Assembly: GCA_025057275.1 (NCBI GenBank) | Contig: JANWXQ010000061.1 | Coordinates: 1 to 36,682 of the forward strand | DNA length: 36,682 bases | DNA from: Chitinophagales bacterium | Lineage (GTDB): Bacteria > Bacteroidota > Bacteroidia > Chitinophagales > UBA10324 | Direction of reading: 5' to 3' | Shown here: positions 1,354 through 31,606 of the stretch, in pieces | Position numbering within the stretch: position 1 is the stretch's first letter | Layout: each line of letters begins with the position of its first letter | Position numbers and translations under genes: made by a program | The notes under the pieces: generated by a model | The model's database searches: none | What the model was told of the DNA's origin: nothing | Seen by the model: the letters and a program-made list of their open reading frames with translations, nothing else

Positions 1354-1390
1354 TTTTATTCTTTTTTATTGACTGAACATACTCCATTCT

Positions 1391-7311: not shown

Positions 7312-7354
7312 AGCGGTAAAGGCAAAGCTGATCAAATTTGAGCATCTTGCAGCT

Positions 7355-7720
7355 ATGTTGACCATCTCGCTTTGGGATGTCCGCTTGTTGGCTCCGGTGG
7401 GCGTAAGCGCAGAAGAGCAGCACCTGATGGCCGAATTATCTCTTGATGTGGAAGTGACGGTGCAAGCGCATGATGAAGTGCATTCCCTTGGTGACACGTT
7501 GGATTATCAGCGATTGGCGGAGGTGGTGCGGCAAGCGGTCAGCCGGCCGACCCCTTTGCTGGAGCAGGTTTGCCGGCAACTGATTGCAGCGGTAAGCGAA
7601 ATGGACGAGCGCATTGCCGCAATAACCGTTACGGTGCGCAAGCTGCATCCGGTGACCATGAAGGGCGTGGGCAGTGCCGGCGTTCGGCAACAGTGGCGCC
7701 GCGGGCAACAGGACGTTTAG
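7355..7720 (+). CDS. folB: Dihydroneopterin aldolase
   Basis: Converts 7,8-dihydroneopterin to 6-hydroxymethyl-7,8-dihydropterin and glycolaldehyde in folate synthesis; cytoplasmic, normally an octamer. At 121 residues it has the usual length. The family pattern is visible: ISLWDVRLLAPVGVSAEEQ at the N-terminus, then TLDYQRLAEVV with the conserved Tyr51, Glu70 in LLEQVC, and Lys96 in VRKLHP. ATG 7355 is the first start after the divergent tyrosinase-like gene (43 bases apart) and gives the standard N-terminus. The C-terminal tail (about residue 105 on) is more basic and less conserved. It is followed closely by the M3 peptidase gene. Confidence 0.9.
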   Translation: MLTISLWDVRLLAPVGVSAEEQHLMAELSLDVEVTVQAHDEVHSLGDTLDYQRLAEVVRQAVSRPTPLLEQVCRQLIAAVSEMDERIAAITVTVRKLHPVTMKGVGSAGVRQQWRRGQQDV

Positions 7721-12457: not shown

Positions 12458-12482
12458 ACATGATGCATTAAAATGTTTGTTA

Positions 12483-14083: not shown

Positions 14084-16801
14084 ATGAAAAGCTTTTTCAT
14101 TACCTTATTGCTGTTCTTTTTCTGCTTTCGGCCATCGCTGGCGCTTACCGTAACCAATTTTACCGGTTTTTACAAAAACGGTCAGGTGTTTTTTACCTGG
14201 ACAACAGTAAACCACAATAGCCCAACGTATAAGCTGTATCGTTCAACTGCGCCAATAACTTCCGGTTCGCAAATAGCCAGTTGCGAATATCTGGGAGCAA
14301 CGGATAAGAATTCTTCAGTCAATCACAACTTAACTACAGCCGACGGCGTTACCCGCTATTGGGTTATTCAGAACGGTGGCTCGCCCCTGAATGCGCAGAC
14401 CGGATTGTTTGTTACCACCTCGGTAGCTAACGGCGCATTTTATTATGCCTTGCTGGTAACTACCGGTGGGGTAGAAGATCAGACCATTATTCCCGGTGCC
14501 AACTCCCTGACCGCACCCATCAACGAAACCGTAAGCCCCCGGGTGCCGGTATTACAGGAAATACGGCAGATTGATGGAAAGCCGGTGGAGATTTACGGTC
14601 ACTTTATCACCAGCAGGGAAACTCTGAACGGACCGCTGCGCTTCAAAGCAGGATGGCTCGGATACAGTTTTGCCGTATACCGGAATAACGCCACCACCCC
14701 CCAGGGCCTGCATGTACGATATCACGCCGGTGGCGGCACCTTTCTGACCAATATTACCAATGTCAAGTCCACAGAGCTAAACCTGGGGGTAGAAGATTAC
14801 TTTCCCAGCGGAGAATCCAGCGGCTGGATTGGCAGCAATGAGCAATACGATGCATTCAAGAAAAGCAGTAACTCCGAATGGACCACCGGAACGAATTATT
14901 TCTACACCGTGGATCGGGTGGCCTATGAAATCCAGTGGGTGATCAACAACTTTCCTGTTGATCCCAACAAGGTGTGGGCCGATGGTAATTCCTTCGGAGC
15001 TACCGGAGCTTTTTTTCTGTGGCTGTATTATCCTCAACTGCTGGCTGCTGTAGAGCTGACCAGCGGCATGTTCAATTTTGGTTTTGAAAACGATGCCAAT
15101 CCCAACTGCACCATGAATCCCGGTGGCGTCAACCGTAAGGACGGGAACAAGTTATTGGGCACCACTGCTGCCAATCTGTGGGAGGGAAGCGGGCAACGCA
15201 CCTATGACCGACTGAACGGGCCCAAACAAATACACCTCAACAAACTCACCGATTACCCGGTGCTGTACAGCATTAACGGCCGCATGGATGACAAGCTGGG
15301 CTGGACGGAAAAAACCATCTGGTACGATTCCGTTAACCGCAACCGAACCGGAGGATATTACTTCTTTGACAACCGCGATCATGGCGGAAATAACAAGACA
15401 TGGGTTTCTACCAATTTTGATTTGTATCGTTATGCACGAAATGTGGCTTATCCGGCCTTTTCATTCTGTTCCATCAACAGCAATCCAGGCAACGGACAAC
15501 CGGCTAACGGCGATATAGCCGGAACCATCAATGGTCACTTGAATTGGTTAAATCCGGAAGCCGATTTACCCAATGAATTTCGCATGAAACTTTTTGTACG
15601 CGACCTGCAGCAGGCGAACAACGTAGTGGTGGTAGCACCGGCTTCTTGCACGGCTGATGTTACCCTGCGAAGGCGCCAGCAGTTTCTGCCCCCTACCGGA
15701 AGCCTCATTTCCTGGAATGTGAAAAATCTGGGACAGCAGATTCAGTCGGGCAGTTTTGTTTATGATGGCCAACTGCTGACCATCCCGGGCGTCATTATCA
15801 GGAAAGACACTTCGTTGCTCACGGTTACCTGGTCGGCCGCCGTGGATACGTTTTATCTGGATGCCGATGGCGATGGATATGGTTTGACCAACAGTTTCGT
15901 CATAGCGGCCACCAAGCCTTCAGGCTATGCGGATTTGCCCGGCGATTGCAACGACGGCAATTCGGCTGTTTATCCGGGTGCAACGGAAAGCTGCAATAGC
16001 ATAGATGACGACTGCGATGGTGTGGTGGATGAGCAAACGTTCACGGCATCCATTACTCCGGCCAATTCGTTTTCGCAATGCGAAGGCACCAAGGTCACCT
16101 TCACGGCCAATGAAAGCGGCATGAGCTATCAATGGTTCCGGAATGAGGTGGCCATTTCGGGGGCTACCAAAAAGAAATACGATTCCAAGGGCTCGGAAGC
16201 CGGCACCTACAAGGTGCGTGAGACCAACAGCAGCGGCTGCACGGCTTTTTCGAATGAGGTAACGTTGACGCGGGTAGCAAAACCCAAGGCCAGCATTAAG
16301 GCCGAAGGAAGCCTGAACATTTGCAGCACCGGATCGGTTACGCTGAAAGCCAAGAACGGCACGGGCACGCAGTGGCAATGGTACAAGAACGATGTAGCCA
16401 TAGCAGGAGCCACGCAGAAAACATACGTAGCGACGTCGGTGGGGCAGTACAAGGTAAAAGTTACCGAGCCGGTGCTGGGCTGTAACAAGACCTCCAAGCC
16501 GGTTACGGTTACTTCCTCCTGCCGGCAGACAGAGACCTCTTCAGAGGCGGTGCTGGTCACCGCTTATCCGGTGCCGGCAACGGATTTGCTACACATCCGT
16601 TGGCAGTCCACTTCATCCGGAGAGATGTCGCTTTACCTGAGAAATTCTATAGGCCAAGTGGTTTGGAGCGTTGAAGGGCTTGCGGAAGGCATGCAGCAGG
16701 AACACGTTGTGGATGTAAGCCGCCTTCCTGCAGGATTTTATTTGTTGGAATACGGTAACTCGTATGGCACAAACAGGCAGCAGGTTGTGATAGTAAAATA
16801 A
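14084..16801 (+). CDS. Secreted serine-hydrolase-like protein 1, MopE motif, Ig-like domains, T9SS domain
   Basis: First of four tandem paralogues; 905 residues, exported. Order: signal peptide (1-20, MKSFFITLLLFFFCF), Fn3-like domain (22-125, FTGFYKNGQVFFTW), alpha/beta-hydrolase-like domain (about 150-520), one MopE-type putative metal-binding motif (590-650, YLDADGDGYG, DCNDGNSAVYPGATESCN and DDDCDGVVDE), two Ig-like domains (about 655-730 and 733-813), and a T9SS domain (825-905, AYPVPATDLL). The probable catalytic triad is Ser303 in the nucleophile elbow GNSFG, Asp402 in NGRMDDKLGWTEK, and His433 in NRDHGG; YHAGGG (213-218) may form the oxyanion hole. All three triad positions are conserved in the four paralogues. 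The substrate is unknown; polyester or carbohydrate-ester cleavage at the cell surface is a guess. Likely co-transcribed with prmA or read from an unrecognised promoter. Confidence 0.85.
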   Translation: MKSFFITLLLFFFCFRPSLALTVTNFTGFYKNGQVFFTWTTVNHNSPTYKLYRSTAPITSGSQIASCEYLGATDKNSSVNHNLTTADGVTRYWVIQNGGSPLNAQTGLFVTTSVANGAFYYALLVTTGGVEDQTIIPGANSLTAPINETVSPRVPVLQEIRQIDGKPVEIYGHFITSRETLNGPLRFKAGWLGYSFAVYRNNATTPQGLHVRYHAGGGTFLTNITNVKSTELNLGVEDYFPSGESSGWIGSNEQYDAFKKSSNSEWTTGTNYFYTVDRVAYEIQWVINNFPVDPNKVWADGNSFGATGAFFLWLYYPQLLAAVELTSGMFNFGFENDANPNCTMNPGGVNRKDGNKLLGTTAANLWEGSGQRTYDRLNGPKQIHLNKLTDYPVLYSINGRMDDKLGWTEKTIWYDSVNRNRTGGYYFFDNRDHGGNNKTWVSTNFDLYRYARNVAYPAFSFCSINSNPGNGQPANGDIAGTINGHLNWLNPEADLPNEFRMKLFVRDLQQANNVVVVAPASCTADVTLRRRQQFLPPTGSLISWNVKNLGQQIQSGSFVYDGQLLTIPGVIIRKDTSLLTVTWSAAVDTFYLDADGDGYGLTNSFVIAATKPSGYADLPGDCNDGNSAVYPGATESCNSIDDDCDGVVDEQTFTASITPANSFSQCEGTKVTFTANESGMSYQWFRNEVAISGATKKKYDSKGSEAGTYKVRETNSSGCTAFSNEVTLTRVAKPKASIKAEGSLNICSTGSVTLKAKNGTGTQWQWYKNDVAIAGATQKTYVATSVGQYKVKVTEPVLGCNKTSKPVTVTSSCRQTETSSEAVLVTAYPVPATDLLHIRWQSTSSGEMSLYLRNSIGQVVWSVEGLAEGMQQEHVVDVSRLPAGFYLLEYGNSYGTNRQQVVIVK
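15944..16528 (+). repeat. 585-base module nearly identical to 18708-19292 (copy A)
   Basis: Covers the end of the MopE motif and both Ig-like domains of paralogue 1. Aligned by eye without gaps to copy B in paralogue 2, I count about 14 differences in 585 bases, while the catalytic regions of the two genes are far more diverged. This indicates recent gene conversion or module exchange. Confidence 0.9.
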
Positions 16802-16838
16802 ATTTCATTAGCTTTCATTAACCACCAAAACCCATTTC

Positions 16839-19562
16839 GTGTCGAGACGAATCGGACTACTGGTTTTTGTTTCTTATTCCTTCTGTGCCCAGGGGCAGGT
16901 AGTTACCCAACTGGAGGCTACGTACCGCTACGGTCAGGTATTCATTACGTTCCAGCATAATGGAACTTCCGGGACCTATTTTTTGCTTTACCGTTCGGAA
17001 CAACCCATAACAGCGCCTTCCCAACTGGCCGCCTGCGAATATCTGGGCATGGTAAACCATGAATCGTCGAAAAATCACACGCTGTCGTCCGTAGATGGCA
17101 TGACGCGCTATTTCGTTACGGCCGACCTGGCAACTCCCCTTACAGCCAGCAAAGGTTTGATGGTAACTACCTGCGTGGCCAACAAAGCTTATTACTATGC
17201 TGTAACCCGCCTGAGTGGCGGTTCGGAAGACCTAACCATTGTTCCGGGATCGAATGCGCTGACCAGTCCGGTAAACGAAACGGTAGCCACGCCCAGGCCG
17301 GTGCTTCAGGAAAAGCGCACCATGAGCCAGCAAACCATCATAGACATCTATGTTCAGTTCTTATCGTCGCGAGTTACGCCGAATGGTCCGTTGCGGTTTA
17401 AGGCCGTGAGTCTGGGCTTTTGTTTTGCCGTAAATCCGGGGCAGCTGGCTACAAAACCTGCTCCGCTGTATGTCAATTTTCATGGTGGGGGAGGAAATTT
17501 TATGTCCAACATTACTTCCGGAGGAAAGAAGAAAATTCTACTTAACGTTTCGCATCATTTGCCCAGCGGCGATGTAACGGCCTGGCTGGGCTCCAACCAG
17601 AATTACGATGTCTGGATTCCCACCAACAACACAGTGCCGCCCACATCCGGCTTTAACTTTTTTTACACGCAGACAGCCATTCTGGAAGCCATTCGTTTTG
17701 TGGTGGCCACGTATCAGGCCGATTCCAACCGGGTGCACCTGATTGGCAATTCCAACGGGTCTAACGGTGCCTTCATGCTGGCGCTGGTTTATCCGGAAAA
17801 AATTGCTTCCTGCGAAGTAACCGGAGGCATGTACAACTTCGGTTTTTTGAACGATTACAATCCGGATTGCTCAATGAATTCAGGAAAATACAATCGGGTA
17901 GATGGAGATAACCGCTTTGGCACGGTAGCCGCAAACCTGACTGAGGGCGTGCACATGAAAGGCACGTACGACCTGATCAATGGTCCGGTGCAAGTGCATT
18001 TGCGGCGGGAAACAGATTTTCCGGTATTCAAAGGTTTGAATGGAAAAAACGACAAGCTTATGGGCTGGACGGAAAAGGTGATCTGGTATGATTCGGTAAA
18101 CCGCAACCGCATTGGGGGATACTTTTATTTTGACATGCGCCAGCATGGGGGGGAAGGGCGGTCGTGGAATGCCCTGCCATTTGAGCCGGAACGCTATGCT
18201 ACCAACATTTCGTATCCGGCTTTCAGCTATTGCTCTGCCAATGAAAATCCCGGCGTTGGCAATAACGTCAGCGGCGACTCGGTGGGAAGCATCAATGGTT
18301 ACCTGAACTGGGCAGATCCTGATGCCGATCTGCCGGACAATTGGAAAATACGACTGTTCATGCGCAACCTGGCCACGCTTAATGGGGTGAAGGTTGCTCC
18401 CGACTCCTGCACGGTTGACGTTACTCCGCGTCGAAGACAGCAATTCAAACCGGCACCGGGCACCCCGTTGCTCTGGGAAGTGCGACGTTACGGTCAATTG
18501 GTGCAAAGCGGTTTTCTGGTGTACGAGGGGGGCCTCTTGACCATTCCGGCAGTGAAAGTGTTTAAGGATACCAGCACGCTCAGCATCAGCATAGCGACCG
18601 GTATGCTGAAAACGTATTACCAGGATGCCGATGGGGATGGCTTTGGAAATGCTGCGATCTGGCAACAAGCCTTCTCTGCTCCCAGCGGTTATGTGGAAAA
18701 TGATCAGGATTGCAACGACGGCAATTCGGCTGTTTATCCGGGTGCAACAGAAAGCTGCAACGGCATGGATGACGACTGCGATGGTGTGGTGGATGAGCAA
18801 ACGTTCACGGCGTCCATTACTCCGGCCAATTCGTTTTCGCAATGCGAAGGCACCAAGGTCACCTTTACGGCCAATGAAAGCGGCATGAGCTATCAATGGT
18901 TCCGGAATGAGGTGGCCATTTCGGGGGCTACCAAAAAGAAATACGATTCCAAGGGCTCGGAAGCCGGCACCTACAAGGTGCGTGAGACCAACAGCAGCGG
19001 TTGCACGGCTTTTTCGAATGAGGTAACGTTGACGCGGGTAGAAAAACCCAAGGCCAGCATCAAGGCTGAAGGAAGCCTGAACATTTGCAGCACCGGATCG
19101 GTTACGCTGAAAGCCAAGAACGGCACGGGCACGCAGTGGCAATGGTACAAGAACGATGTAGCCATAGCAGGAGCCACCCAGAAGACCTACGTAGCGACAT
19201 CGGTGGGGCAGTACAAGGTAAAAGTTACCGAGCCGGTGCTGGGCTGTAACAAGACCTCCAAGCCGGTTACGGTTACTTCCTCCTGCCGGCAGCTTGAGAA
19301 CGTGCCTTTTGATGTAAGGGTGGGGCCAAATCCGGCCAACACGGTATTGCAGGTGTACATCAGGTCTGATGTGGAGGAGTGTAGCGGGTTGATGGAATTG
19401 CATACTGTGTCGGGCCATCGGGTAAGACAACAGGCACTTCCCATTCATGGTTGCACCGCTGCGTTAGATTTGCCGGTTCATGATCTGCCCGCAGGGCTCT
19501 ATTGGTTGCAGATCCGCCTCATCGGTTTTTCAAGGGTTATTCCGGTAGAGATAGTCCGTTAA
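16839..19562 (+). CDS. Secreted serine-hydrolase-like protein 2, MopE motif, Ig-like domains, T9SS domain
   Basis: Second tandem paralogue, 907 residues, same architecture as protein 1. Start is GTG 16839 (MSRRIGLLVFVSYSFCAQGQ), a short but acceptable signal peptide; no better ATG lies between it and the conserved Fn3-like domain. Triad: Ser305 in GNSNG, Asp405 in NGKNDKLMGWTEK, His436 in MRQHGG. The oxyanion motif FHGGGG (214-219) is the clearest of the four and resembles the HGGG of carboxylesterases. One MopE-type motif lies at about 599-655 (YYQDADGDGFGN, DDDCDGVVDE), then two Ig-like domains almost identical to those of protein 1, then a T9SS domain (VGPNPANTVL to IPVEIVR). It starts 37 bases after protein 1, suggesting one transcript. 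Confidence 0.84.
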   Translation: MSRRIGLLVFVSYSFCAQGQVVTQLEATYRYGQVFITFQHNGTSGTYFLLYRSEQPITAPSQLAACEYLGMVNHESSKNHTLSSVDGMTRYFVTADLATPLTASKGLMVTTCVANKAYYYAVTRLSGGSEDLTIVPGSNALTSPVNETVATPRPVLQEKRTMSQQTIIDIYVQFLSSRVTPNGPLRFKAVSLGFCFAVNPGQLATKPAPLYVNFHGGGGNFMSNITSGGKKKILLNVSHHLPSGDVTAWLGSNQNYDVWIPTNNTVPPTSGFNFFYTQTAILEAIRFVVATYQADSNRVHLIGNSNGSNGAFMLALVYPEKIASCEVTGGMYNFGFLNDYNPDCSMNSGKYNRVDGDNRFGTVAANLTEGVHMKGTYDLINGPVQVHLRRETDFPVFKGLNGKNDKLMGWTEKVIWYDSVNRNRIGGYFYFDMRQHGGEGRSWNALPFEPERYATNISYPAFSYCSANENPGVGNNVSGDSVGSINGYLNWADPDADLPDNWKIRLFMRNLATLNGVKVAPDSCTVDVTPRRRQQFKPAPGTPLLWEVRRYGQLVQSGFLVYEGGLLTIPAVKVFKDTSTLSISIATGMLKTYYQDADGDGFGNAAIWQQAFSAPSGYVENDQDCNDGNSAVYPGATESCNGMDDDCDGVVDEQTFTASITPANSFSQCEGTKVTFTANESGMSYQWFRNEVAISGATKKKYDSKGSEAGTYKVRETNSSGCTAFSNEVTLTRVEKPKASIKAEGSLNICSTGSVTLKAKNGTGTQWQWYKNDVAIAGATQKTYVATSVGQYKVKVTEPVLGCNKTSKPVTVTSSCRQLENVPFDVRVGPNPANTVLQVYIRSDVEECSGLMELHTVSGHRVRQQALPIHGCTAALDLPVHDLPAGLYWLQIRLIGFSRVIPVEIVR
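18708..19292 (+). repeat. 585-base module nearly identical to 15944-16528 (copy B)
   Basis: Second copy, offset exactly 2764 bases from copy A with no insertions or deletions. Identity ends abruptly at the C-terminal sorting domain (after TGCCGGCAG) and at the start of the CNDGNS part of the MopE motif. Confidence 0.9.
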
Positions 19563-19609
19563 AAATTTTTAGGGAGAAAAATATCCTTCCAGAAGCAACG
19601 AGTAGGATG

Positions 19610-19617
19610 TATATTTG
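19610..19617 (+). promoter_or_regulatory. Candidate -7 box (TATATTTG) inside the esterase array
   Basis: Exact TAnnTTTG match between paralogues 2 and 3. If used, transcription would begin near 19624, which favours ATG 19648 over ATG 19621 as the start of gene 3. No clear -33 TTTG was found. Confidence 0.45.
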
Positions 19618-19647
19618 GTAATGTTCTTATTTTTTTATGTGCAAAAG

Positions 19648-22587
19648 ATGAAACAGCATATGAATCGTATCCTTCTATGGGCGCACCTCTCGTTGATCGC
19701 CGGTTCGGTATGCAAAGGAGCCACCGTAACCGGATTTACCGGATTTTACAGAGACGGACAGGTGTTTTTTACCTGGAACAACACCACGGAAAGTAAGCCG
19801 ACCTACAAATTGTACCGTTCCGTTTCACCCATAACGGCAGGCAGCCAACTCAGCAGTTGCGAATTTCTCGGTATCGTCAAGGAAAATTCTTCGAAGAACT
19901 TTCCCTTATCCAAAGCAGATGGAGTAGACCGGTACTGGGTCATTTCGCCCGGAGGAGCTCCGCTGTCGCCGAACACAGGACTGTTTGTGACCACCTGTGT
20001 GGGCAACGGATATTTTTATTATGCACTGACCGTCGAGCGAAACAGCAACGAAGACAAAAACATCATTCCCGGACAGAATTCCCTGACCGTTCCTATCCTC
20101 GAAACCATTGCACCGCCAAAACCTGTTTTGCAGGAAGTGCGCATCATCAACGGTAAGCCTATTGATATATACGGAGAATTTATCACCAGTCAGACCCAGG
20201 CTGGGGGAGCGCTGGAGATGATGGCCGGCTGGAACGGCGGCTGTTTTGCCGTTAATCCGAACAGTGCCTCTGCTCCGGTGCCTCTGTATGTGTATTTCCG
20301 CCCGGGGGGCACTTCCTTTCTCAACAAAGTTTCGGAGACAGACCAAAACGAAATCCGCCTCAACCTGGATGACCTGTTTCCCAGTGGCGAATCCAGTGTT
20401 TGGCTGGGTACCCACCCCTCATACGATCCCTTTGTAAAAAAGAACAACAGCATTTTTCCGACCTCAGGCTATGTGTATTTGTACACATTGCAACGTGTGC
20501 GTCGCATCATCCAGTTTGTCAGGCAACAGTATCCGGTGGACAGCACGCGAATCATGCTGGAAGGCATTTCGTTCGGTGCAGTGGGGGCCTTGTTTTATGC
20601 ATTGGCTTATCCGCAGGAAGTGGCTGCCGTTAGTTTGACCGGTGGCATCTTCAATTTCGGATTTCAGAACGATTACCAGCCGGAGTGTACCATGAATTCA
20701 GGTAAGAAAAACCGGCTGGACGGTAGCCGAAAGCTGGGCGCCGTAGAAACGAACCTCATGGAATGGTATAGCCAGATGTCGATTTACGATTACCTGAACG
20801 CCTGTTTGCGCATTCATCAGCTCCGAGAAACAGATGGGCCTTTTTTTAACAGTATAAACGGCAAAAGAGATGAAATGCTGGGATGGACAGAGAAAGTAAC
20901 CTGGTATGATTCGGCTAATGCCAACCGGTTGGGAGGATTTTTCTATTTCGATATGCGGGAACACAACGGCGACGGTTCGGGTTGGACTCAAACCAAGCTG
21001 GATATGTTCCGTTTCCGTACCAATCTGTCGTATCCGGCTTTTTCGTATTGCTCCATTAACGACAATCCGGGCAATGGCAATGGCTACCACGGCGACACCA
21101 TAGGGACTATAAACGGGCACTTGGATTGGAAAGACAACCTTACCGATCAGCCCGACCTCTGGGCAATCAAGTTATATGTTCGTAATCGCAATACGGTTTA
21201 CGGCACAAAAACTGCCCCCGACTCCTGCACGGTGGATGTTACTGCCCGGCGTCGCCAGCAGTTCAAGCCGCCGGCCGGCGCAACGCTGCAATGGGAAGTG
21301 CGTCGTAACGGTCAGGTGGTTCAATCCGGCACCATGGTGTACACCGGCGGCTTGTTAACCGTTCCGGGAGTAAAGGTGTATAAGGACACCAGCCGGCTCA
21401 GCATCAGCATCGTTCAGGCCGCACAGGTGAATTTTTATCAGGATAACGATGGCGATGGATTCGGAAATATTTTCATGCGAATCAAAGCCACTAACCAGCC
21501 TGCAGGGTATGTAGCCGACAGCAGCGACTGCAACGACAATAACGCCCTGATTTATCCTTCAGCCCCAGAATGGTGTAACGGCATGGACGACAACTGCAAC
21601 GGCATCATAGATGAAGGGGTTCAGCAACGGTTTTATGCCGATGCGGATGGCGATGGATTCGGGAATCTTTCTGTCCGCATTTGGTCCTGTGCCCCGCCTG
21701 CAGGGTATGTAGCTGACAGCAGCGACTGCAACGACAACAATACAGCCATTCACCCTTTAGCCGCTGAAGTGTGCAACGGTACTGACGATAACTGCAACGC
21801 TATGGTTGACGAAGGGGTTCCCCCGGCTTCCATTACGCCGGCAGGAACAGTTCTGGCCTGCTCAGGCAGCAGCGTTACCCTTACGGCCAATGCCGGAAGC
21901 GGCCTGTTATACCAATGGTTTAAGGATGGCGTGGCTCAGGCTGGAAAGACCAAGCAGACGCTCAAAGTCAGTGGCAGTAATGCCGGAAGCTATCAGGTGC
22001 GCGTACATACCGCTCAGGGATGTACCACCCTTTCGGAAGCTACACTAATCCAACGGGTGGAAAAACCTAAAGCTTCCATCAAGGTGGAAGGCGATTTGAA
22101 CATTTGCGCAACAGGTTCAGTGACCTTAAAGGCCAGGGACGGCAGCGGAACCCAATGGCAGTGGTACAAAAACGATGTGGCCATAGCCGGTGCCACACAA
22201 CAGTCCTACACAGCCACATCGGTGGGGCAATACAAGGTCAAGGTTACCGAACCGGTTTTGGGATGCCATAAAACTTCTTCGCCGGTGACTGTTACGTCCA
22301 GTTGCCGGCTGATCAGCGAACAAAAGCCTTTTGTGGTTTCCGTAATGCCGAATCCGGCCACAACCCATCTCTTGCTGACCGTGCAAAGTCAGCCGGTGCC
22401 GGAAGCATTGGCATCCGTTGGGCTGTTTTCGCTGACAGGGGTCAGGATTTTGCAGCAACAGCATCTGATTGGTGCACCTACCGAAGTCATCCGGCTTTTA
22501 CTGCCTGAACTGCCGCCAGGAATGTATTTTCTGGAAGTTCGCTTCAACGATTACAGCCAAAGGCTTGCCGTGGAAATTCATCGCTAA
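19648..22587 (+). CDS. Secreted serine-hydrolase-like protein 3, two MopE motifs, Ig-like domains, T9SS domain
   Basis: Third tandem paralogue, about 979 residues. ATG 19648 (MKQHMNRILLWAHLSLIAGS) gives a normal signal peptide and lies after a TATATTTG box; ATG 19621 is possible and would add nine residues. Architecture as in proteins 1 and 2, but with two consecutive MopE-type motifs (FYQDNDGDGFGN with DDNCNGIIDE, then FYADADGDGFGN with DDNCNAMVDE). Triad: Ser308 in GISFG, Asp408 in NGKRDEMLGWTEK, His439 in MREHNG. The oxyanion segment reads YFRPGGTSF instead of HxGG, a possible loss or change of activity. The T9SS domain starts at MPNPATTHLL and ends LAVEIHR. Catalytic-domain sequence is closest to protein 4 (both have FNFGFQNDYQP). 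Confidence 0.83.
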   Translation: MKQHMNRILLWAHLSLIAGSVCKGATVTGFTGFYRDGQVFFTWNNTTESKPTYKLYRSVSPITAGSQLSSCEFLGIVKENSSKNFPLSKADGVDRYWVISPGGAPLSPNTGLFVTTCVGNGYFYYALTVERNSNEDKNIIPGQNSLTVPILETIAPPKPVLQEVRIINGKPIDIYGEFITSQTQAGGALEMMAGWNGGCFAVNPNSASAPVPLYVYFRPGGTSFLNKVSETDQNEIRLNLDDLFPSGESSVWLGTHPSYDPFVKKNNSIFPTSGYVYLYTLQRVRRIIQFVRQQYPVDSTRIMLEGISFGAVGALFYALAYPQEVAAVSLTGGIFNFGFQNDYQPECTMNSGKKNRLDGSRKLGAVETNLMEWYSQMSIYDYLNACLRIHQLRETDGPFFNSINGKRDEMLGWTEKVTWYDSANANRLGGFFYFDMREHNGDGSGWTQTKLDMFRFRTNLSYPAFSYCSINDNPGNGNGYHGDTIGTINGHLDWKDNLTDQPDLWAIKLYVRNRNTVYGTKTAPDSCTVDVTARRRQQFKPPAGATLQWEVRRNGQVVQSGTMVYTGGLLTVPGVKVYKDTSRLSISIVQAAQVNFYQDNDGDGFGNIFMRIKATNQPAGYVADSSDCNDNNALIYPSAPEWCNGMDDNCNGIIDEGVQQRFYADADGDGFGNLSVRIWSCAPPAGYVADSSDCNDNNTAIHPLAAEVCNGTDDNCNAMVDEGVPPASITPAGTVLACSGSSVTLTANAGSGLLYQWFKDGVAQAGKTKQTLKVSGSNAGSYQVRVHTAQGCTTLSEATLIQRVEKPKASIKVEGDLNICATGSVTLKARDGSGTQWQWYKNDVAIAGATQQSYTATSVGQYKVKVTEPVLGCHKTSSPVTVTSSCRLISEQKPFVVSVMPNPATTHLLLTVQSQPVPEALASVGLFSLTGVRILQQQHLIGAPTEVIRLLLPELPPGMYFLEVRFNDYSQRLAVEIHR

Positions 22588-22651
22588 GTCTGTTTCCCTT
22601 TCTTTTATTGGAATTGCGGAAATTTACCAGAGCAACCAAAATGCTTTAGGC

Positions 22652-25576
22652 TTGCCCTCTTCTTTCTCCAAAAGAATTGTTGCCTGGGTAGTCGCTTGGT
22701 TGATGGCCTGCTCATGGGTCCAGGCCGGCATTGTAACCGGGCTTTCGGCAACTTACCGAAACGGTCAGGTGTTTTTTACCTGGAACAACACCAACGACAA
22801 CAAGCCGATTTACAAATTATATCGTTCCACAAGCCCCATTACCTCTGGCAGTCAGCTCAGCAGCTGCGAATTTCTGGGAATAACCAATGAAACGTCTGCA
22901 AAAAATTATAATTTATCAGCAGCCGACGGAACCGATCGGTATTGGGTAATTGAACCCAACGGCAATCCGCTTCCTTCCAGCAAAGGTTTGTTCGTAACCA
23001 CCTCGGTGCTCAACGGATATTTTTATTATGCGGTCACGGTAACGGTAAACAATGTGGAAGATCAGACCATCGTTCCGGGCAGCAATTCGTTGGTGGTGCC
23101 GGTTTACGAAACCGTTGAGCAGCCGCAGCCGTTTTTGTTAGAAACGCGACTGATTAACGGTAAACAGGTGGACGTGTACGGAGATTTTCTGACCAGTCAG
23201 TTTGCGGCTTACGGACCTTTACAGATGAAAGCCGGCTGGATGGGTTATTGTTTTGCTGTCTTTCGTAACAATGCCACTCAGCCCGTTCCCCTGTACGTTT
23301 TCTTTCATGCCGGAGGCTCGAATTTTATGGATCGAATCACAGAGGTTTCGGGTAACGAAATCCGGCTGAATGTTGAAGATTACTTCCCCAGCAATGAGAA
23401 CAGCGGCTGGCTGGGCACCCATCCTTCATATGACCCATTTAAAAAGAAGAACAACACCGTAGCCCCGACCAGTGGCTATAACTACTTCTACTCCATGCTG
23501 CGCATCCGGCGCACTATTGATTTTGTGGTCCGAAATTACCCGGTAGATACCACCTGCATCAGTCTGGAGGGCACTTCCTTTGGCTCCAATGGCGCCCTAT
23601 TTTTTGCTTTGACGTATCCGGAATTGGTGGCTTCCGTTCGGGTGAGTGGCGGCATTTTCAACTTCGGGTTCCAGAATGATTATCAGCCCAACTGCACGAT
23701 GAATACCGGAAAGAAAAACCGGCTGGATGGTGATAAGAAACTGGGCACTGCAGCTTCCAATCTCACCGAATGGTATTTTCAGCAGCCCACTTACGATTTG
23801 CTGAATGCCTGTCTGCAGGTGCACTTGCGGCGGCACACCGACTGGCCGGTGATCTTCAGTATCAACGGGAAGCGCGACGATCTGATCGGATGGACCGAAA
23901 AAATTGCCTGGTATGACTCCGTCAATTCCAATGCCGTGGGCGGCTACTATTTTTTTGACCTGCGTAAACACAGCGGAGAAGGAAAAACCTGGCACCAGCT
24001 GCCGTTTGATGCATTTCGCTATCGAACCAATGTCTCATATCCGGCCTTTTCCAACTGTTCCGCCAATGAAGATCCGGGCCAGGGCAACGACGTGACCGGC
24101 GACAGCGTAGGTTCGGTAAATGGCTACCTGGATTGGAGCAATCCCCTGTCCGATGATTCGCTGCAATGGCAGATCAAGATTTTCATGCGCGATTTGCCTA
24201 CCATCAACGGCAGCAAGGTTGCTCCGGATTCCTGCACCGTTGACCTGACGCCGCGGCGCAGACAGGGCTTTCGGCCTGCGCCGGGGTCTTGGGTGCGCTG
24301 GCAGGTACATCATCACGGGAACCTCGTGCAGGATGACACTTTGATTTATGAGCAGGGGTTGCTTACGTTCCGTGGAGTAAAAATTTTTAAGGATACCGTT
24401 CTCTTTACTGCTATGTTGTTGCCCGTTGGTTCAGCACAACGCTACTACCAGGATAACGATGGCGATGGATTCGGAAATGTGAATTCCTGGGTATTGGCAG
24501 CAAGTCAACCGCTCGGCTATGTGGCCGATAGCTCTGATTGTAACGACACCAATGCAGCCATTCATCCGCAGGCCGGCGAATTATGTAACGGAGTTGACGA
24601 TAACTGCAACGGCACAGCAGATGAAGGCCTGTTGACCCGATTCTATGCTGATGCAGATGGTGATGGCTACGGCAATGTCAGCGTGTATCTGGTTTCCTGT
24701 ACGTTGCCATCCGGTTATGTGACCGATAGCAGCGACTGCAACGACGGGAACGCAGCCATTCATCCGCAGGCCGGCGAACTATGCAACGGAGTTGACGACA
24801 ACTGCAACGGCACAGCAGATGACGGAATTCCTCCGGCCACCGTCACGCCGTCGGGTACTGTACAGGCCTGCAACGGCGTATCGGTTACGCTTACAGCCAA
24901 TGCCGGAAGCGGGTTGTTCTACCAATGGTATAAAGACGGAGCAACCCTGACGGGCAAAACCAAACAGACCTATAAGGTACCGGGCAAAAATGCGGGCAGT
25001 TATCAGGTGCGGGTACACACGGCACAGGGGTGCACCACCTGGTCGGCAGCCACTGTTCTGCAGCGCATTGACAAACCCAAAGCAAGCATAAAAGCCGAAG
25101 GCAGCCTGGACATTTGCGCCGCAGGATCCGTTACTCTAAGAGCTAAAGACGGCACCGGCACGCAGTGGCAATGGTACCGCAACAACGAAGCTATAGCTGG
25201 TGCAACGCAAAAGACGTATGTGGCCACAACTATCGGTCAGTATAAAGTACAGGTTACAGAACCGGTTTTGGGGTGCACCAACACATCGTCGCCGGTAACG
25301 GTTTCTTCTTCCTGCCGATGGAGTACAGGTAGTGAACTGGTACAGTTGGCCGTTTATCCACAACCTGCTGATGAGGTGTTGTATTTGAATGTAACGGGTG
25401 CCCCAGTCCAACATTGGCATATGGAACTGCTTAATGCGCATGCTCAAACATTAATGCAACTGGCTGGTGATGGTACACGTTTTGCCTTGGACATCAGCAA
25501 CCTGCCGGCCGGCTATTACATTGTAATAATGCGCAGCAAAGAGCACCTGCTGGTGAAGCCATTGGTCATACATTGA
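22652..25576 (+). CDS. Secreted serine-hydrolase-like protein 4, two MopE motifs, Ig-like domains, T9SS domain
   Basis: Fourth tandem paralogue, about 974 residues with the start used here. The start is unclear: no in-frame ATG lies between the stop of gene 3 and the middle of the signal peptide. TTG 22652 gives LPSSFSKRIVAWVVAWLMA, a proper signal peptide; the in-frame ATG 22703 would be too short, and an ATG at 22641 is out of frame. Triad: Ser309 in GTSFG, Asp409 in NGKRDDLIGWTEK, His440 in LRKHSG; FHAGGS is the oxyanion candidate. Two MopE-type motifs (YYQDNDGDGFGN and FYADADGDGYGN) share an almost identical CNGVDDNCNGTAD part, so the second may be a recent copy. Two Ig-like domains and a T9SS domain (VYPQPADEVL to VKPLVIH) follow. 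Confidence 0.82.
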   Translation: MPSSFSKRIVAWVVAWLMACSWVQAGIVTGLSATYRNGQVFFTWNNTNDNKPIYKLYRSTSPITSGSQLSSCEFLGITNETSAKNYNLSAADGTDRYWVIEPNGNPLPSSKGLFVTTSVLNGYFYYAVTVTVNNVEDQTIVPGSNSLVVPVYETVEQPQPFLLETRLINGKQVDVYGDFLTSQFAAYGPLQMKAGWMGYCFAVFRNNATQPVPLYVFFHAGGSNFMDRITEVSGNEIRLNVEDYFPSNENSGWLGTHPSYDPFKKKNNTVAPTSGYNYFYSMLRIRRTIDFVVRNYPVDTTCISLEGTSFGSNGALFFALTYPELVASVRVSGGIFNFGFQNDYQPNCTMNTGKKNRLDGDKKLGTAASNLTEWYFQQPTYDLLNACLQVHLRRHTDWPVIFSINGKRDDLIGWTEKIAWYDSVNSNAVGGYYFFDLRKHSGEGKTWHQLPFDAFRYRTNVSYPAFSNCSANEDPGQGNDVTGDSVGSVNGYLDWSNPLSDDSLQWQIKIFMRDLPTINGSKVAPDSCTVDLTPRRRQGFRPAPGSWVRWQVHHHGNLVQDDTLIYEQGLLTFRGVKIFKDTVLFTAMLLPVGSAQRYYQDNDGDGFGNVNSWVLAASQPLGYVADSSDCNDTNAAIHPQAGELCNGVDDNCNGTADEGLLTRFYADADGDGYGNVSVYLVSCTLPSGYVTDSSDCNDGNAAIHPQAGELCNGVDDNCNGTADDGIPPATVTPSGTVQACNGVSVTLTANAGSGLFYQWYKDGATLTGKTKQTYKVPGKNAGSYQVRVHTAQGCTTWSAATVLQRIDKPKASIKAEGSLDICAAGSVTLRAKDGTGTQWQWYRNNEAIAGATQKTYVATTIGQYKVQVTEPVLGCTNTSSPVTVSSSCRWSTGSELVQLAVYPQPADEVLYLNVTGAPVQHWHMELLNAHAQTLMQLAGDGTRFALDISNLPAGYYIVIMRSKEHLLVKPLVIH
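24551..24624 (+). repeat. 74-base near-identical internal repeat, copy 1
   Basis: Encodes NAAIHPQAGELCNGVDDNCNGTADE. The second copy begins 198 bases downstream (66 codons) with only a few base differences (such as TTATGTAAC against CTATGCAAC), so the MopE-type motif was duplicated in tandem. Confidence 0.85.
24749..24822 (+). repeat. 74-base near-identical internal repeat, copy 2
   Basis: Second copy of the MopE-motif segment in protein 4, in the same frame, 198 bases after the first; its last acidic residue is Asp instead of Glu. Confidence 0.85.
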
Positions 25577-25681: not shown

Positions 25682-28600
25682 ATGCGGTGGATGCTGGTGG
25701 TGATCGGGTGTATGCTTACGGCTTCGTTATGCGCCCAGTCTGGGGGCTTTTCCCAATCGCGGGATCAGTTCATCAAAGAGCTTGCCCAATTGCTCACTGA
25801 CACCAAGCGGGACGATTGCCGGCAGGCCGCCCAGCAACTCCAGCAGGCCTGGCCGTCTTTGGGAACGACCGTTCAGGGCGATGTGTTGGAAGTGGCGCAA
25901 CGCATGCAGGGCCGGCGCATGTTGGCCCATCCGTATTTCTGCAAACTGGCGTTGGTGGCCATTGCCTATCATGAGGGTAAACCCGGAAGCGAAAGCTGGA
26001 GCTCCTGGTATGAAGTAGCCATGGAAGTGCTGGCCAATCTTCGTCAGGGGAACAACAAACAGTTTGATGAATTTCTGGATTTTTCTGTTGGATTGTTTTC
26101 CGGACAAACGCTTTACGGAACAGCTTCCAAGCAATGGCGGTTTCGCGGAGGAACCTATGAGCTGCGGATGCAGGATAAGCAACCGGTGCTGTTTGTTTCC
26201 GACTGCGACCTGGTTGGCCTCTCGCCTGCCGATTCCACCATCATCTATGCGACGGAAGGCACGTACTTTCCCATGGAGGAAAAGTGGGTGGGTCGGGGAG
26301 GCCGGGCCGACTGGCGACGGGCCGGATTTGATCCCGATGCCGTTTACGTGCTGCTGCAGCAGTATCAGATTGATGTGCGCAAAAGCGAATATGCCGCTGA
26401 TTCGGTTCGGTTGTTTTATGAAAATTATCCTAAAGCATCGTTGTGGGGCACGTTTCGCGATAAGATTCTCAGCACCAGCGATACGGACCGGATCAGCTAC
26501 CCGCGCTTTCAGTCGCTGCGCACCGACCTGACGTTCGATGAGCTCATTCCACATGCACGCCTGCGGGGCGGGCTGGAACTGGCAGGAAACCGTATGGCTG
26601 TTTATGGAAGTGCGGGAGCAGAAGCCTCCCTTCGCATTTTCCGTTTCGACGACCAGCTGGGCGTGCTTTCCCGCTCCCAGCGGTTTGCCATTCGCAAAGA
26701 CAGGGAAGTTCATGCCTCTCAGGCTTATGTCAAAATCTTCTATGGAAAAGATTCGCTGGTTCACCTGGGCATCAGCCTTCGTTACAATGCCGAGAAGCGG
26801 GAACTGGTCCTCACGCGCGGGCGTTACGGCATCTTCAAATCGCCGTTTTATGATTACTACCGCAGTCTGGAGCTTTCCCCTGAGCTGATTTACTGGGACA
26901 TGAATGAACCTGAGCTGATCATGCGCCAGGTGGCCGTCACCGGCAACAGCACCATGACCATGGAGTCGTTCGATTATTACCGTGCCGGCCGTATGGATAA
27001 ATATCAGGGACTTGCCGATTACAATCTGGTGGATCGCCTCAAGCAGATCGTGGACCGCACCGGTCAGCGCACGTTCTATGCCGATGATCTGGCCAAACGC
27101 ATTGACCCGAACTATTCATTAGACATCATAGAGCCCATGTTATACAAGCTGGTGGAAGACGGCTTTATTGATTACGACGACCGCAACAAAGAAGTAACCA
27201 TTCGCGCCAAAACGTTCCGTTACGTTGCCGCCAAACAAAAGAAAATTGATTACGACAACATCCGCATAGAATCCGTAACCAATGGCGTGAACGCAACGGT
27301 GGATATGCGCAGCTACGAAATGAAGGTGGATGGAGTGAAAAGTGTGTCGCTGAGCGACTCCAGCTTTGTGGTGGTCTTTCCCCGGGAAGGAAAAATCACG
27401 TTGCGCGACAACCGCAACATGGATTTCAGTGGGTCGCTTTTTGCCGGCCGGGTGGATCTGAGCGGTGATGGGTTTTCGTTTGACTACGGCCAGTTTCGGC
27501 TAAACCTGAGCCATGTGGATAGTATGGTCATCAACATTCCTACCGGACGCCGCGATGCTTCGGGAATACCAACGGTGGGGCCCATCCGCAGTGTGGTGAG
27601 TGACCTGACCGGCCACCTTCAGATTGACAGCCGGGAAAACCGCGGCGGCATCAAGCCGCTCAAGCAATATCCTGTACTCACCACCACCCAGCCGTCGTAT
27701 GTTTATTACGATCATCATTCCATCCTGAATGGCGTTTACGAGCGGGACAAGTTTTATTTTCAGGTTGACCCGTTTGTTTTTGACTCCCTGCAAAAGCTGC
27801 AGCCCGATCAGGTGGCTTTTACCGGCAAACTGGTGTCCGACGGCATTCTGCCGGAGCTCAAGGAAACCTTACGCATTCAGCCGGATTTGTCACTCGGATT
27901 CAGGACGCGCCTGCAGAACACTGCTGTGTACGGAGGTCGCGGTACGTTCAGCAATGAGCTGACCCTAAGCAATGCAGGGCTGCGTGGACACGGCGACATT
28001 CGTTTTGTGACAGCCCGATTGAAGGCTTCCCAACTCATTTTTTTCCCTGACTCGCTATTAGGAAGAGCTGATTCGGTGCGCATGGATGCCACGGTTTTCA
28101 ACGGAACGGAATTTCCTACTGTTCGGGGCCTGAACAGCCGCCTGCGCTGGTTGCCTTATCAGGATTCGCTTATTCTTCGTTCGGATACCAACGCTTTTCG
28201 ACTGTTTGACCTGAAAACCACACTGGCCGGTTCCCTGGTGTTGCAGTCTTCCGGTCTTCGCGGTCGCGGTCATGTGGACTGGGCTGAAGCCTCTTTGTCC
28301 AGCAACGATATAGGCTTTGGTAAGCATACCCTGAAGGCCGATAGTTGTGATTTCCTGATTAAATCGCTGGATGTAAAAAAAGCAGCGTTAAAAACCACCG
28401 ATGTCAATGCACGCATCGATTTTGAAAAACGCATCGGCGATTTCCGACTTAACGATGAGGAAAGCAGCACCGTCTTTCCGTACAACCAGTATGCCACCAC
28501 CATCAGCGAGTTCCGTTGGAATATGGACCGCAAGCAGTTGACTTTCCGGGCACCGAAAGGCAGTCTGGCCGACTTTACTTCCCTGCATCCGCAGCAGGAC

Positions 28601-30145
28601 GGTCTGGCTTTTCAGGGTTCTTCCGCCATTTATGACCTGAACGACTACGTTCTGCGCATTTCGGGTGTTCCTTCCATTGACGTGGTGGATTCGCGATTCA
28701 TTCCTGACAGCCTCAAAGTGGTAGTGGAAGCCAATGCCCGGTTGCGCACGCTCCAACGGGCCCGCTTACTGATGGACTCCGTCAGTCAATATCATGTGTT
28801 CGACAGCGTGACGGCCACCATCAGCGGACGCTATGCGGTAAAAGCATCGGGCCGGTATGCTTTTGAAAACCTTACCGGAAAAAAGCAATACTTCTTCTGC
28901 GAAGACATCGGTGTTTTTACCGATACGGCCGATGGACAGCGGCGCCTGTATGCCCGTGCCCGCATCGACAGCGCTCAAAGGCTGATGTTGCTGCCCCGCA
29001 TTGCCTTCAAGGGATCAGCACAAATCACGTCATCGCGCGAGCCGGTAGTATTCAAAGGGTTTGCGCGGCTTCAGCTCAACCATCCCAAAGTGATTTCGGA
29101 ATGGTTTTCCGTAAACCATGCGCTGACGCCGGATTCGTCCCACCTCTATTTCCGCGATCCGGTCAATGAAGCCCGAAGGCCCATGTTGTGCGGATTGGTG
29201 TTTGACGCCGATTCCAATGATTTATATGTTTCTTTTTTTAATGCTAAAAAATCGTCTCGCGACCGCAGTCTCTTTCATGTGGAAGGCATTGTGTATTACG
29301 ACAGCACGATGTCGGAATTCATCGCCGGCGACCGGGCCAAGCTGCTGCACGGCAGCAGCCGCGGCAATATCCTGAGGTTTAACGAGAAGCGCAGCCGGGT
29401 GTACGGCGAAGGACTGATGAACTTTGGTTTCAATTTTGGCATGGTCAACCTGATCAGTGCGGGTAGTTTTTCCTACGACGTCAATAAGGAAGAGCCCACT
29501 TTCCGGGTGGCCCTGGGATTGGGCTTTCCCATGGACGAAGCCTTGCTGACCTATATGGCCAATTCCGTACTCAAAGGCAACAGCGATGCCGAATATGCCG
29601 ATTATGCCTCGGATCATTTTACCCGAACCTTTTCGGAACTGCTCAAACCCGAGCAGGAAAAAAAATGGAAAGAGCAGCTGAACAAAACCGGTTTTTTTGT
29701 GCAAAGCGATGAACTGCCGTACACAATTCTGATTTCGGAAGTGGAGTTGAAATGGGACAAGGCTACGCGTTCGTTTTACAATACCGGACCGTTTGCGCTG
29801 GCGTTTATCGGAAAAAATTCCGTGGCTACTGTGGTGCCCGGCTATCTGGAAATGGGATTCAAACGGGGAGGTGATTATTTCAACCTGTTCCTCCCTGCCG
29901 GCGACGAAGAGGATTATTATTTTTTTCTTTCCTATGCAACCAACAACCTGCAGGTGATCAGCGGCGAAAGGGCGTTTAATCAGATGCTGATGGACATTAA
30001 ACCCGAAAAGCGGCGGTTTGAAGAAGACGGCAAATTGTTTATGTACAATCCCGGTTCCGAAAACAAAAAGAACACCTTCGTCAACCGGATGAAATTTTTG
30101 CAGGAAGAAGCTGCTAAAGCCAAAAAGCAACAACAGAAAAAATGA
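25682..30145 (+). CDS. Giant conserved Bacteroidota protein of unknown function, probably periplasmic or surface
   Basis: About 1487 residues; I do not know its function. It resembles a family of roughly 1500-residue hypothetical proteins in Bacteroidota, recognised from recurring phrases such as QTLYGTASKQWRFRGGTYEL, SYPRFQSLR and PSYVYYDHHSILNGVYERDK. ATG 25682 is chosen because it gives a signal peptide (MRWMLVVIGCMLTASLCAQ); GTG 25604 would add 26 unneeded residues. No transmembrane segment is evident after the signal peptide. Most of the chain has short amphipathic strands like large beta-helix or beta-sandwich proteins. Residues about 448-516 (LVDRLKQIVDRTGQRTFYAD to EEVTIRAKTF-like end) look like a winged-helix fold, which is unexpected in an exported protein. 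The C-terminus is coiled and Lys/Gln-rich (KAKKQQQKK). It starts 105 bases after the esterase array and ends 19 bases before plsY. Confidence 0.8.
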   Translation: MRWMLVVIGCMLTASLCAQSGGFSQSRDQFIKELAQLLTDTKRDDCRQAAQQLQQAWPSLGTTVQGDVLEVAQRMQGRRMLAHPYFCKLALVAIAYHEGKPGSESWSSWYEVAMEVLANLRQGNNKQFDEFLDFSVGLFSGQTLYGTASKQWRFRGGTYELRMQDKQPVLFVSDCDLVGLSPADSTIIYATEGTYFPMEEKWVGRGGRADWRRAGFDPDAVYVLLQQYQIDVRKSEYAADSVRLFYENYPKASLWGTFRDKILSTSDTDRISYPRFQSLRTDLTFDELIPHARLRGGLELAGNRMAVYGSAGAEASLRIFRFDDQLGVLSRSQRFAIRKDREVHASQAYVKIFYGKDSLVHLGISLRYNAEKRELVLTRGRYGIFKSPFYDYYRSLELSPELIYWDMNEPELIMRQVAVTGNSTMTMESFDYYRAGRMDKYQGLADYNLVDRLKQIVDRTGQRTFYADDLAKRIDPNYSLDIIEPMLYKLVEDGFIDYDDRNKEVTIRAKTFRYVAAKQKKIDYDNIRIESVTNGVNATVDMRSYEMKVDGVKSVSLSDSSFVVVFPREGKITLRDNRNMDFSGSLFAGRVDLSGDGFSFDYGQFRLNLSHVDSMVINIPTGRRDASGIPTVGPIRSVVSDLTGHLQIDSRENRGGIKPLKQYPVLTTTQPSYVYYDHHSILNGVYERDKFYFQVDPFVFDSLQKLQPDQVAFTGKLVSDGILPELKETLRIQPDLSLGFRTRLQNTAVYGGRGTFSNELTLSNAGLRGHGDIRFVTARLKASQLIFFPDSLLGRADSVRMDATVFNGTEFPTVRGLNSRLRWLPYQDSLILRSDTNAFRLFDLKTTLAGSLVLQSSGLRGRGHVDWAEASLSSNDIGFGKHTLKADSCDFLIKSLDVKKAALKTTDVNARIDFEKRIGDFRLNDEESSTVFPYNQYATTISEFRWNMDRKQLTFRAPKGSLADFTSLHPQQDGLAFQGSSAIYDLNDYVLRISGVPSIDVVDSRFIPDSLKVVVEANARLRTLQRARLLMDSVSQYHVFDSVTATISGRYAVKASGRYAFENLTGKKQYFFCEDIGVFTDTADGQRRLYARARIDSAQRLMLLPRIAFKGSAQITSSREPVVFKGFARLQLNHPKVISEWFSVNHALTPDSSHLYFRDPVNEARRPMLCGLVFDADSNDLYVSFFNAKKSSRDRSLFHVEGIVYYDSTMSEFIAGDRAKLLHGSSRGNILRFNEKRSRVYGEGLMNFGFNFGMVNLISAGSFSYDVNKEEPTFRVALGLGFPMDEALLTYMANSVLKGNSDAEYADYASDHFTRTFSELLKPEQEKKWKEQLNKTGFFVQSDELPYTILISEVELKWDKATRSFYNTGPFALAFIGKNSVATVVPGYLEMGFKRGGDYFNLFLPAGDEEDYYFFLSYATNNLQVISGERAFNQMLMDIKPEKRRFEEDGKLFMYNPGSENKKNTFVNRMKFLQEEAAKAKKQQQKK

Positions 30146-30164
30146 ACTTGTTGAATACGTGCTT

Positions 30165-30806
30165 ATGACGTTTGGCTGGATAGCGGCTTTGGCGACGGCC
30201 TATTTTATTGGCAGCATTCCCTCTGCCGTATGGTTGGGTCGCTGGCTTTATGGTACCGATGTGCGACAGTCCGGCAGCGGTAATGCCGGAGCCACCAATA
30301 CGTTCCGTGTGCTGGGCGCGCGGGCTGCTGCCGCCGTGCTGCTTGTAGATGTGGTCAAAGGGATGCTGGCCATCGTGCAGGGACAGTGGTGGCTGCCAGA
30401 TGAGCTGTCTGACCATCAGCGTCAATGGATTCAGTTGGCGCTGGGCTTCGTTGCCGGTTTGGGGCATGTGTTTCCGGTGTACACGCAATTTCGCGGCGGC
30501 AAAGGCGTGGCTACCTTTTTCGGCGTGCTGATCTATCTGTTTCCTTATGCCGCTTTGCTGGTGGCTGTGGTTTTTGTCGTGGTGTTGTGGATTACCCGAA
30601 TCGTTTCTGCGGCCAGCTTATCGGCAGCGCTGTTATTGCCTTTGGCCATGTGGCTTACCGTTTCGCCGCCCCGAACTGCACCGTTGGTTTTTTCGCTGGT
30701 GATGTTGGCTACTGTGGTGTTTACGCATCGTCAAAATATTGTCAGACTTCTCAACGGCAAGGAGCCGCAACTTAACTTTGCCGGCAAGAATCGTCCTGCT
30801 CGTTGA
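30165..30806 (+). CDS. plsY: Glycerol-3-phosphate acyltransferase PlsY
   Basis: Inner-membrane enzyme that transfers an acyl group from acyl-phosphate to glycerol 3-phosphate, the first step of phospholipid synthesis. 213 residues, with about five hydrophobic segments. All three PlsY motifs are present: GSIPSAVWLGRW near residue 16, GSGNAGATNTFRVLG near 38, and GHVFPVYTQFRGGKGVATFFG near 104. ATG 30165 is preferred over GTG 30159 upstream; the two differ by two residues. Its stop overlaps the TTG start of the next gene (TTGA), so the two are probably translationally coupled. Confidence 0.95.
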   Translation: MTFGWIAALATAYFIGSIPSAVWLGRWLYGTDVRQSGSGNAGATNTFRVLGARAAAAVLLVDVVKGMLAIVQGQWWLPDELSDHQRQWIQLALGFVAGLGHVFPVYTQFRGGKGVATFFGVLIYLFPYAALLVAVVFVVVLWITRIVSAASLSAALLLPLAMWLTVSPPRTAPLVFSLVMLATVVFTHRQNIVRLLNGKEPQLNFAGKNRPAR

Positions 30807-31606
30807 ACCGGTATCACCTTCTTTCTGTTTTGGCTGGAGTGGTACTGCTGTTTGCCTGTACCAAGGTGCCAATTACCAATCGCAAGCAGATGAATCTGCT
30901 GCCGGAGTCGGAGTTAACCAGCATGGCGCTGACGCAATATCAGGACGTGCTCAAATCCAGCAAGGTTATTACGGGAACTGCCGATGCACAAATGGTGCAG
31001 CGTGTTGGGGTAAACATTAGTAATGCGGCCAAAACACTGATGGAAAAAATCGGCCAGAGCAAAAGCATTGCAGGGTACAAATGGGAATATGCCTTGATTG
31101 AAAGCAAGGAACCCAATGCCTGGTGCCTGCCCGGAGGAAAAATTGCTGTTTACACCGGCATTCTTCCCATTACCAAAGATGAGACCGGACTGGCCGTGGT
31201 GATGGGTCATGAAGTGGGTCATGCTTTGGCCCGCCATGGCAATGAGCGGATGAGCCATGGGCTGCTGGCACAGATGGGAGGTATTGCTTTGGCTGTGGCC
31301 CTGGCCGAACAGCCTCAGGCAACACAGGAACTTTTTTCCCAAGCCTATGGATTAGGGGTTTCGGTAGGGGCTTTGTTGCCCTACTCCCGGCTGCAGGAAT
31401 CCGAAGCCGACAAGATCGGCCTGGTGCTGATGGCAGCTGCCGGTTACGATCCCAACAAAGCCATAGACTTCTGGCAACGAATGAAACAGGCCACCGGCAG
31501 TTCCGAAGTCCCTGCATTCTTCAGCACCCATCCCAGCGATGACCAACGCATAGCAGAAATCAAGAAGTTTTTGCCGGAAGCGATGAAATACTACACCAAA
31601 AAATAA
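30803..31606 (+). CDS. M48 family metallopeptidase lipoprotein (LoiP/BepA-like)
   Basis: Zinc peptidase, 267 residues, predicted to be a lipoprotein in the envelope. The signal peptide ends in the lipobox LLFAC (Cys19). The zinc motif HEVGH is at 136-140 (MGHEVGHALARH), and the third ligand Glu is in ESEADKIG near 199-203. Members of this class (LoiP, BepA, YcaL in E. coli) work in outer-membrane protein quality control, which is the likely role here. The start is TTG 30803, overlapping the plsY stop; no in-frame ATG precedes the lipobox region closely enough. The C-terminus, FFSTHPSDDQRIAEIKKFLP, is typical of the family. Confidence 0.92.
   Translation: MNRYHLLSVLAGVVLLFACTKVPITNRKQMNLLPESELTSMALTQYQDVLKSSKVITGTADAQMVQRVGVNISNAAKTLMEKIGQSKSIAGYKWEYALIESKEPNAWCLPGGKIAVYTGILPITKDETGLAVVMGHEVGHALARHGNERMSHGLLAQMGGIALAVALAEQPQATQELFSQAYGLGVSVGALLPYSRLQESEADKIGLVLMAAAGYDPNKAIDFWQRMKQATGSSEVPAFFSTHPSDDQRIAEIKKFLPEAMKYYTKK

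Follow-up and report, generated by a model that had tools for sequence, protein, structure and literature searches.

The window, i.e. the whole 36,682-nucleotide stretch of contig JANWXQ010000061.1 (Chitinophagales bacterium, assembly GCA_025057275.1) analysed here, carries a 4.5 kb gene for a putatively exported protein of 1487 residues. The flanking genes, taken from the neighbourhood survey, and the parts of the protein are listed below in order of position.

12477-13244, + strand: tpiA, conserved upstream neighbour (neighbourhood survey)
13234-14055, + strand: prmA, conserved upstream neighbour, abutting the 1487-residue protein gene in most relatives (neighbourhood survey)
25682..30145, + strand: whole gene, exported protein of 1487 residues plus stop (open reading frame)
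25682..25738, + strand: putative signal peptide, residues 1-19, MRWMLVVIGCMLTASLCAQ (sequence, by eye; similar N-termini in homologues)
25760..26104, + strand: predicted N-terminal helical domain, residues 27-141, six helices, weakly helical-repeat-like (AlphaFold2 model)
26108..26971, + strand: predicted first beta region, residues 143-430 (AlphaFold2 model)
27017..27235, + strand: predicted winged helix, residues 446-518, H1-S1-H2-H3-S2-S3 plus a trailing helix (AlphaFold2, structural and sequence matches)
27254..27901, + strand: predicted second beta region, residues 525-740, part of it repeated at 980-1177 (AlphaFold2 model, profile comparison, local score)
27284..27421, + strand: internal repeat, copy 1, residues 535-580 (local score 62)
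27905..29038, + strand: predicted Lpt-type extended beta-jellyroll, residues about 742-1119 (Foldseek and VIA matches)
28616..28744, + strand: internal repeat, copy 2, residues 979-1021 (local score 62; profile comparison)
29537..29689, + strand: predicted three-helix segment, residues 1286-1336 (AlphaFold2 model)
29726..30142, + strand: predicted C-terminal beta-rich domain and final helix, residues 1349-1487 (AlphaFold2 model)
30159-30806, + strand: plsY, 13 nt downstream of the 1487-residue protein gene (neighbourhood survey)
30803-31606, + strand: M48 BepA/LoiP-like lipoprotein (protease), overlapping plsY by 4 nt (neighbourhood survey)

The reading frame starts with an ATG at 25682 and stops with a TGA at 30143-30145. 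An in-frame GTG at 25604 is an alternative start, which would give 1513 residues; the ATG product, however, begins with the signal peptide. By eye, the first 19 residues are signal-peptide-like and end in CAQ, with a probable SPase I site near AQ/S, and the N-terminus looks like a cleavable signal peptide, though it may instead be an inner-membrane anchor such as TamB/AsmA-like proteins have. A hydrophobic start ending in AQ or a variant was likewise seen by eye in nearly all complete homologues, in line with the signal peptide proposed in a preliminary description of this DNA, which had also considered the protein to be exported rather than cytoplasmic; from the recurrence of this export signal we infer the same localisation. 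No trans-membrane window was found past the N-terminus, and the Pfam and NCBIfam searches gave no match to the T9SS C-terminal sorting domain (TIGR04183/PF18962). Since a trans-membrane helix after the signal peptide and a T9SS tail are both lacking, the periplasm is, from sequence, the most likely site of the protein.

Concerning known families, searches of the single sequence against Pfam, NCBIfam and PDB sequences retrieved none, even at E 10, the one PDB sequence match (E 1.5) being judged a chance hit, and the family profile found nothing among PDB sequences. The protein thus remains, as first described, without a known function, and no description of it was found in the open-access literature searched.

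Within the family, the gene is found in the context tpiA-prmA-X-plsY, X being the gene of the 1487-residue protein. Immediately upstream lies prmA, often overlapping, in 20 of the 24 loci having an upstream gene, preceded by tpiA and a sugar nucleotidyltransferase, and plsY, an M48 protease or a spermidine-synthase-like gene follows. An M48 protease is encoded nearby downstream in 8 loci, and the one present in the window is BepA/LoiP-like. Many distant relatives also have tpiA, prmA or plsY flanking the family gene. Eight genomes of family f21, all without the gene, were tested: prmA and plsY are immediate neighbours in six (G060, G146, G181, G205, G307 and G346) and lie on separate contigs in G048, while in G035 prmA was matched only weakly. 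In the six genomes, the prmA and plsY matches lie ~80-120 nt apart, at the place where the 4.5 kb gene sits elsewhere. The simplest reading of this site is a clean loss, or an insertion, of the gene. A functional tie to plsY, considered on the basis of synteny, is weakened by the existence of the prmA-plsY cluster without the gene, so that having plsY as a neighbour does not specifically point to a role in lipids.

Between prmA and the gene, the window holds four tandem paralogous genes (14084-25576, + strand) of 905, 907, 990 and 1035 codons. A Pfam scan of one of them showed a MopE-like metal-binding motif; three were tested for T9SS sorting tails, which score around or slightly under the cut-off, and two contain a weak PHA-depolymerase-like stretch. 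The first two share blocks of 255-300 nt that are 97-98 percent identical, which suggests a recent duplication or gene conversion. Further upstream are a gene for a tyrosinase (5380-7497, - strand; PF00264, E 1.7e-25) that bears a T9SS sorting tail and, at 1-3553 (- strand), several repeat-rich ORFs with a GGYVVAGYT...GDVSGNHG unit, split between adjacent frames, one of them with a T9SS tail; these ORFs are possibly frame-shifted or degraded. The link to the T9SS suggested initially was not borne out: the 1487-residue protein has no sorting tail, its conserved neighbours are housekeeping genes, and the T9SS-tailed tandem upstream is a local insertion.

The distribution of the family was analysed in several genome samples, which are non-random, so that no count is a rate. 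With the broader profile, it was found in 316 of 396 genomes of the class sample; 118 of 199 genomes in the order sample and 55 of 61 close relatives carry it. The conservation in Bacteroidota that had been proposed held for the class and order samples and was limited in the phylum sample, differently composed and searched with a narrower profile, where only 11 of 296 genomes were positive. That first phylum sample had suggested a rare gene, a view overturned by the broader profile and the other sample, in which the gene is common. Members are mostly full length, with one copy per genome; genomes G371 and G825 each have two full-length copies, in tandem in the former. Among the named loci are Chitinophagales, Saprospiraceae and other Bacteroidota MAGs. 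Several lineages are without the family: it is missing from the f21 genomes listed and from part of those of f18. As a whole, the family is kept by many uncultured Bacteroidota families.

Two AlphaFold2 models were obtained, with a mean pLDDT of 86.7 for the first and 89.5 for the second; the first was predicted from an alignment over residues 21-980 of 23 sequences, the window's protein together with 22 homologues taken from genome contigs that carry names. As to the two models, their pTM values are only 0.57 and 0.64, and the arrangement of the domains is consequently uncertain. Beta structure predominates in both. The N-terminal helical domain was matched to designed helical proteins by VIA (Z 8.0 and 5.8), which is not significant. 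A weak profile similarity relates the first beta region (143-430) to residues 735-1000. The internal repeat (535-580 and 979-1021) reached a local score of 62 against a shuffle maximum of 53 (0 of 500 shuffles reached 62) and profile comparison recovered it too, across a longer stretch, with 60 percent probability.

The winged helix is a fold usually met on DNA inside cells. The preliminary description had placed one at about residues 448-516, with a helix-rich part from LVDRLKQIV to YKLVEDGFIDYDDR and a wing-like strand; it was recovered at about 446-518 by AlphaFold2, Foldseek, VIA and Pfam searches on homologues, LVDRLKQIV lying within residues 446-457 and YKLVEDGFIDYDDR within residues 478-501. 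In the model, the order of elements is helix 449-460, strand 464-466, helix 467-474, helix 480-492, strand 496-499 and strand 504-507, with a pLDDT of about 78-90. Foldseek matched this stretch to Z-alpha 3eyi (probability 0.99, TM 0.73 by target) and to the cullin WHB domain of Cdc53 (probability 0.94), both with weak E-values, and VIA gave a modest match to the LRRK2 COR region (Z about 5). When 17 homologous fragments of ~91 residues were searched against Pfam, TFIIE_alpha was found in 6 of them (best E 7.9e-5), together with several further winged-helix families; the window's own fragment scored 14.9 bits against TFIIE_alpha, under the curated cut-off of 22.9 bits. The same search on the N-terminal helical stretch, used as a control, yielded no repeated family (25 families, once each) and no comparable winged-helix signal. 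Residues 487-506 rank with the best-conserved 20-residue windows in the protein, and the motif is retained, though weaker, in relatives at about 24 percent identity. Taken together, the modelled topology, the structural matches and the sequence matches make the prediction of a winged helix at residues about 446-518 well supported.

This segment has the same H1-S1-H2-H3-S2-S3 topology as the winged helices of TFIIE alpha, MecI, Z-alpha and cullin WHB; it differs from them in being part of an exported protein, in lying between two beta regions and in its helix 3. Among 20 homologues, the net charge of helix 3 ranges from 0 to -3 (mean -1.35) and is never positive, and that of the whole winged helix is -0.4. 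The basic recognition helix that marks winged-helix DNA-binding proteins is thus absent, and DNA binding by this segment is unlikely because helix 3 is neutral to acidic.

Much of the 1487-residue protein corresponds to a second predicted fold, which had gone unrecognised at first. LptA, LptC and the N-terminal domain of LptD are lipopolysaccharide-transport proteins with lipid-carrying jellyrolls. LptD was the top Foldseek match of both models (E 5e-6 and 7.8e-6), and LptA and LptC were matched with probabilities up to 0.99. In VIA, LptD aligned over 159 residues at about 776-954 (Z 11.6, rmsd 3.4), followed by LptA (Z 9.9) and LptC (Z 8.9), the best non-Lpt beta match in the list having a Z of 7.2; such matches would also arise from a closed beta sandwich. 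In the second model, the Lpt matches begin at about 750, and the aligned positions shift from one Lpt chain to another, reaching about 1053, a sliding that fits a jellyroll longer than LptA. An extended Lpt-type beta-jellyroll at residues about 742-1119 is therefore a well-supported prediction of the models. At the sequence level, comparison of the family profile with OstA, LptD and TamB alignments from the same genomes revealed no significant link (best P about 0.02), so that the fold resembles Lpt and common descent is not established. From the modelled fold, we infer that the jellyroll may bind lipid or lipopolysaccharide.

The source genome encodes OstA (contig C78, a 540-codon frame), LptD (also on C78) and TamB (contig C40, a 1598-codon frame) as separate genes, which makes the 1487-residue protein, encoded on contig C3, an additional protein. 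It shares with the jellyrolls of LptA, LptC and the LptD N-terminus (OstA superfamily) a predicted beta-jellyroll (Z up to 11.6) and a probable periplasmic location, to which it adds a helical N-terminus, a winged helix and a C-terminal domain, and it has no significant sequence similarity to them. The periplasmic and outer-membrane Lpt components of the same genomes, OstA-like LptA (PF13100) and LptD_2 (PF19838), are also distinct from it: no OstA, LptA or LptD sequence family of Pfam matched it at E 10, and OstA-like proteins have about 480-700 residues. TamB and AsmA-like proteins, like it, are large, exported and beta-rich, and are proposed lipid carriers (TamB has about 1600 residues here); in contrast to them, it gave no Pfam match to the TamB domain (PF04357) or an AsmA domain and no profile match to TamB, and its structural matches point to Lpt proteins. 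TAM and AsmA-like proteins of Bacteroidota have been described, including the AsmA-like proteins of Flavobacterium johnsoniae (PMC12045153), in a text where the word 'winged' does not occur. Neither a 'periplasmic winged helix' nor an OstA-type winged-helix protein was found described in the open-access literature searched.

The favoured reading, a tentative one to which we give somewhat less than an even chance, is that of a periplasmic Lpt-type lipid-binding or bridging protein whose winged helix serves as a docking or structural joint. The protein would be soluble or signal-anchored in the periplasm, of about 167 kDa and mainly beta, with the extended jellyroll in its second half. The groove of this jellyroll would hold acyl chains of a phospholipid or of lipopolysaccharide, and would carry or guide the lipid across the periplasm in the manner of LptA, in parallel with Lpt and TAM, which are separate systems. 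The winged helix, flanked by a beta region on either side and having a neutral to acidic helix 3, would most likely dock a partner protein or play a structural part, as opposed to reading DNA. Counting against this reading are the missing significant sequence link to the OstA, LptD and TamB alignments, the uncertain domain arrangement, the prmA-plsY cluster found without the gene and the lineages that do without it. A bolder version, which we regard as unlikely, would have many uncultured Bacteroidota families use the protein as a periplasmic lipid conduit made in one piece and running parallel to Lpt and TAM, its repurposed winged helix joining two beta tubes and serving for docking or gating.

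The main rival, somewhat unlikely in our judgement, is a periplasmic scaffold or outer-membrane assembly factor in which the jellyroll would be structural, the winged helix and the helical N-terminus would dock partners, and no lipid would be carried. Winged helices often mediate protein contacts, and the cullin WHB and LRRK2 COR matches, the modelled helical N-terminal domain and the M48 protease genes downstream agree with such a role; the best structural matches are, however, specifically the Lpt jellyrolls that carry lipid, which score well above other beta proteins. The fold class shared with LptA, LptC and the LptD N-terminus could also point to an accessory component of lipopolysaccharide or lipo-oligosaccharide export that works in direct contact with LptA/OstA or LptD. 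This appears quite improbable: OstA and LptD are kept in genomes without the gene, so that the protein is not a core Lpt part, and in the source genome its gene is not near theirs. Least credible, and very improbable, is a secreted or periplasmic nucleic-acid-binding protein, for instance in DNA uptake, with the winged helix used in its usual way. The fold itself and the sequence similarity of the fragments to TFIIE alpha, MecI and further families that bind DNA speak for it, whereas a helix 3 that is neutral to acidic throughout the 20 homologues, the small share of the winged helix in a beta protein and the lack of competence genes among the neighbours speak against it.

In diderm bacteria, the passage of lipids across the periplasm is still an open question, and one little studied in Bacteroidota. 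This widely conserved, unannotated, large and exported protein with the predicted fold of a lipopolysaccharide bridge is a concrete candidate for deletion and assay. Its winged helix would, if true, represent a DNA-binding fold reused outside the cytoplasm.
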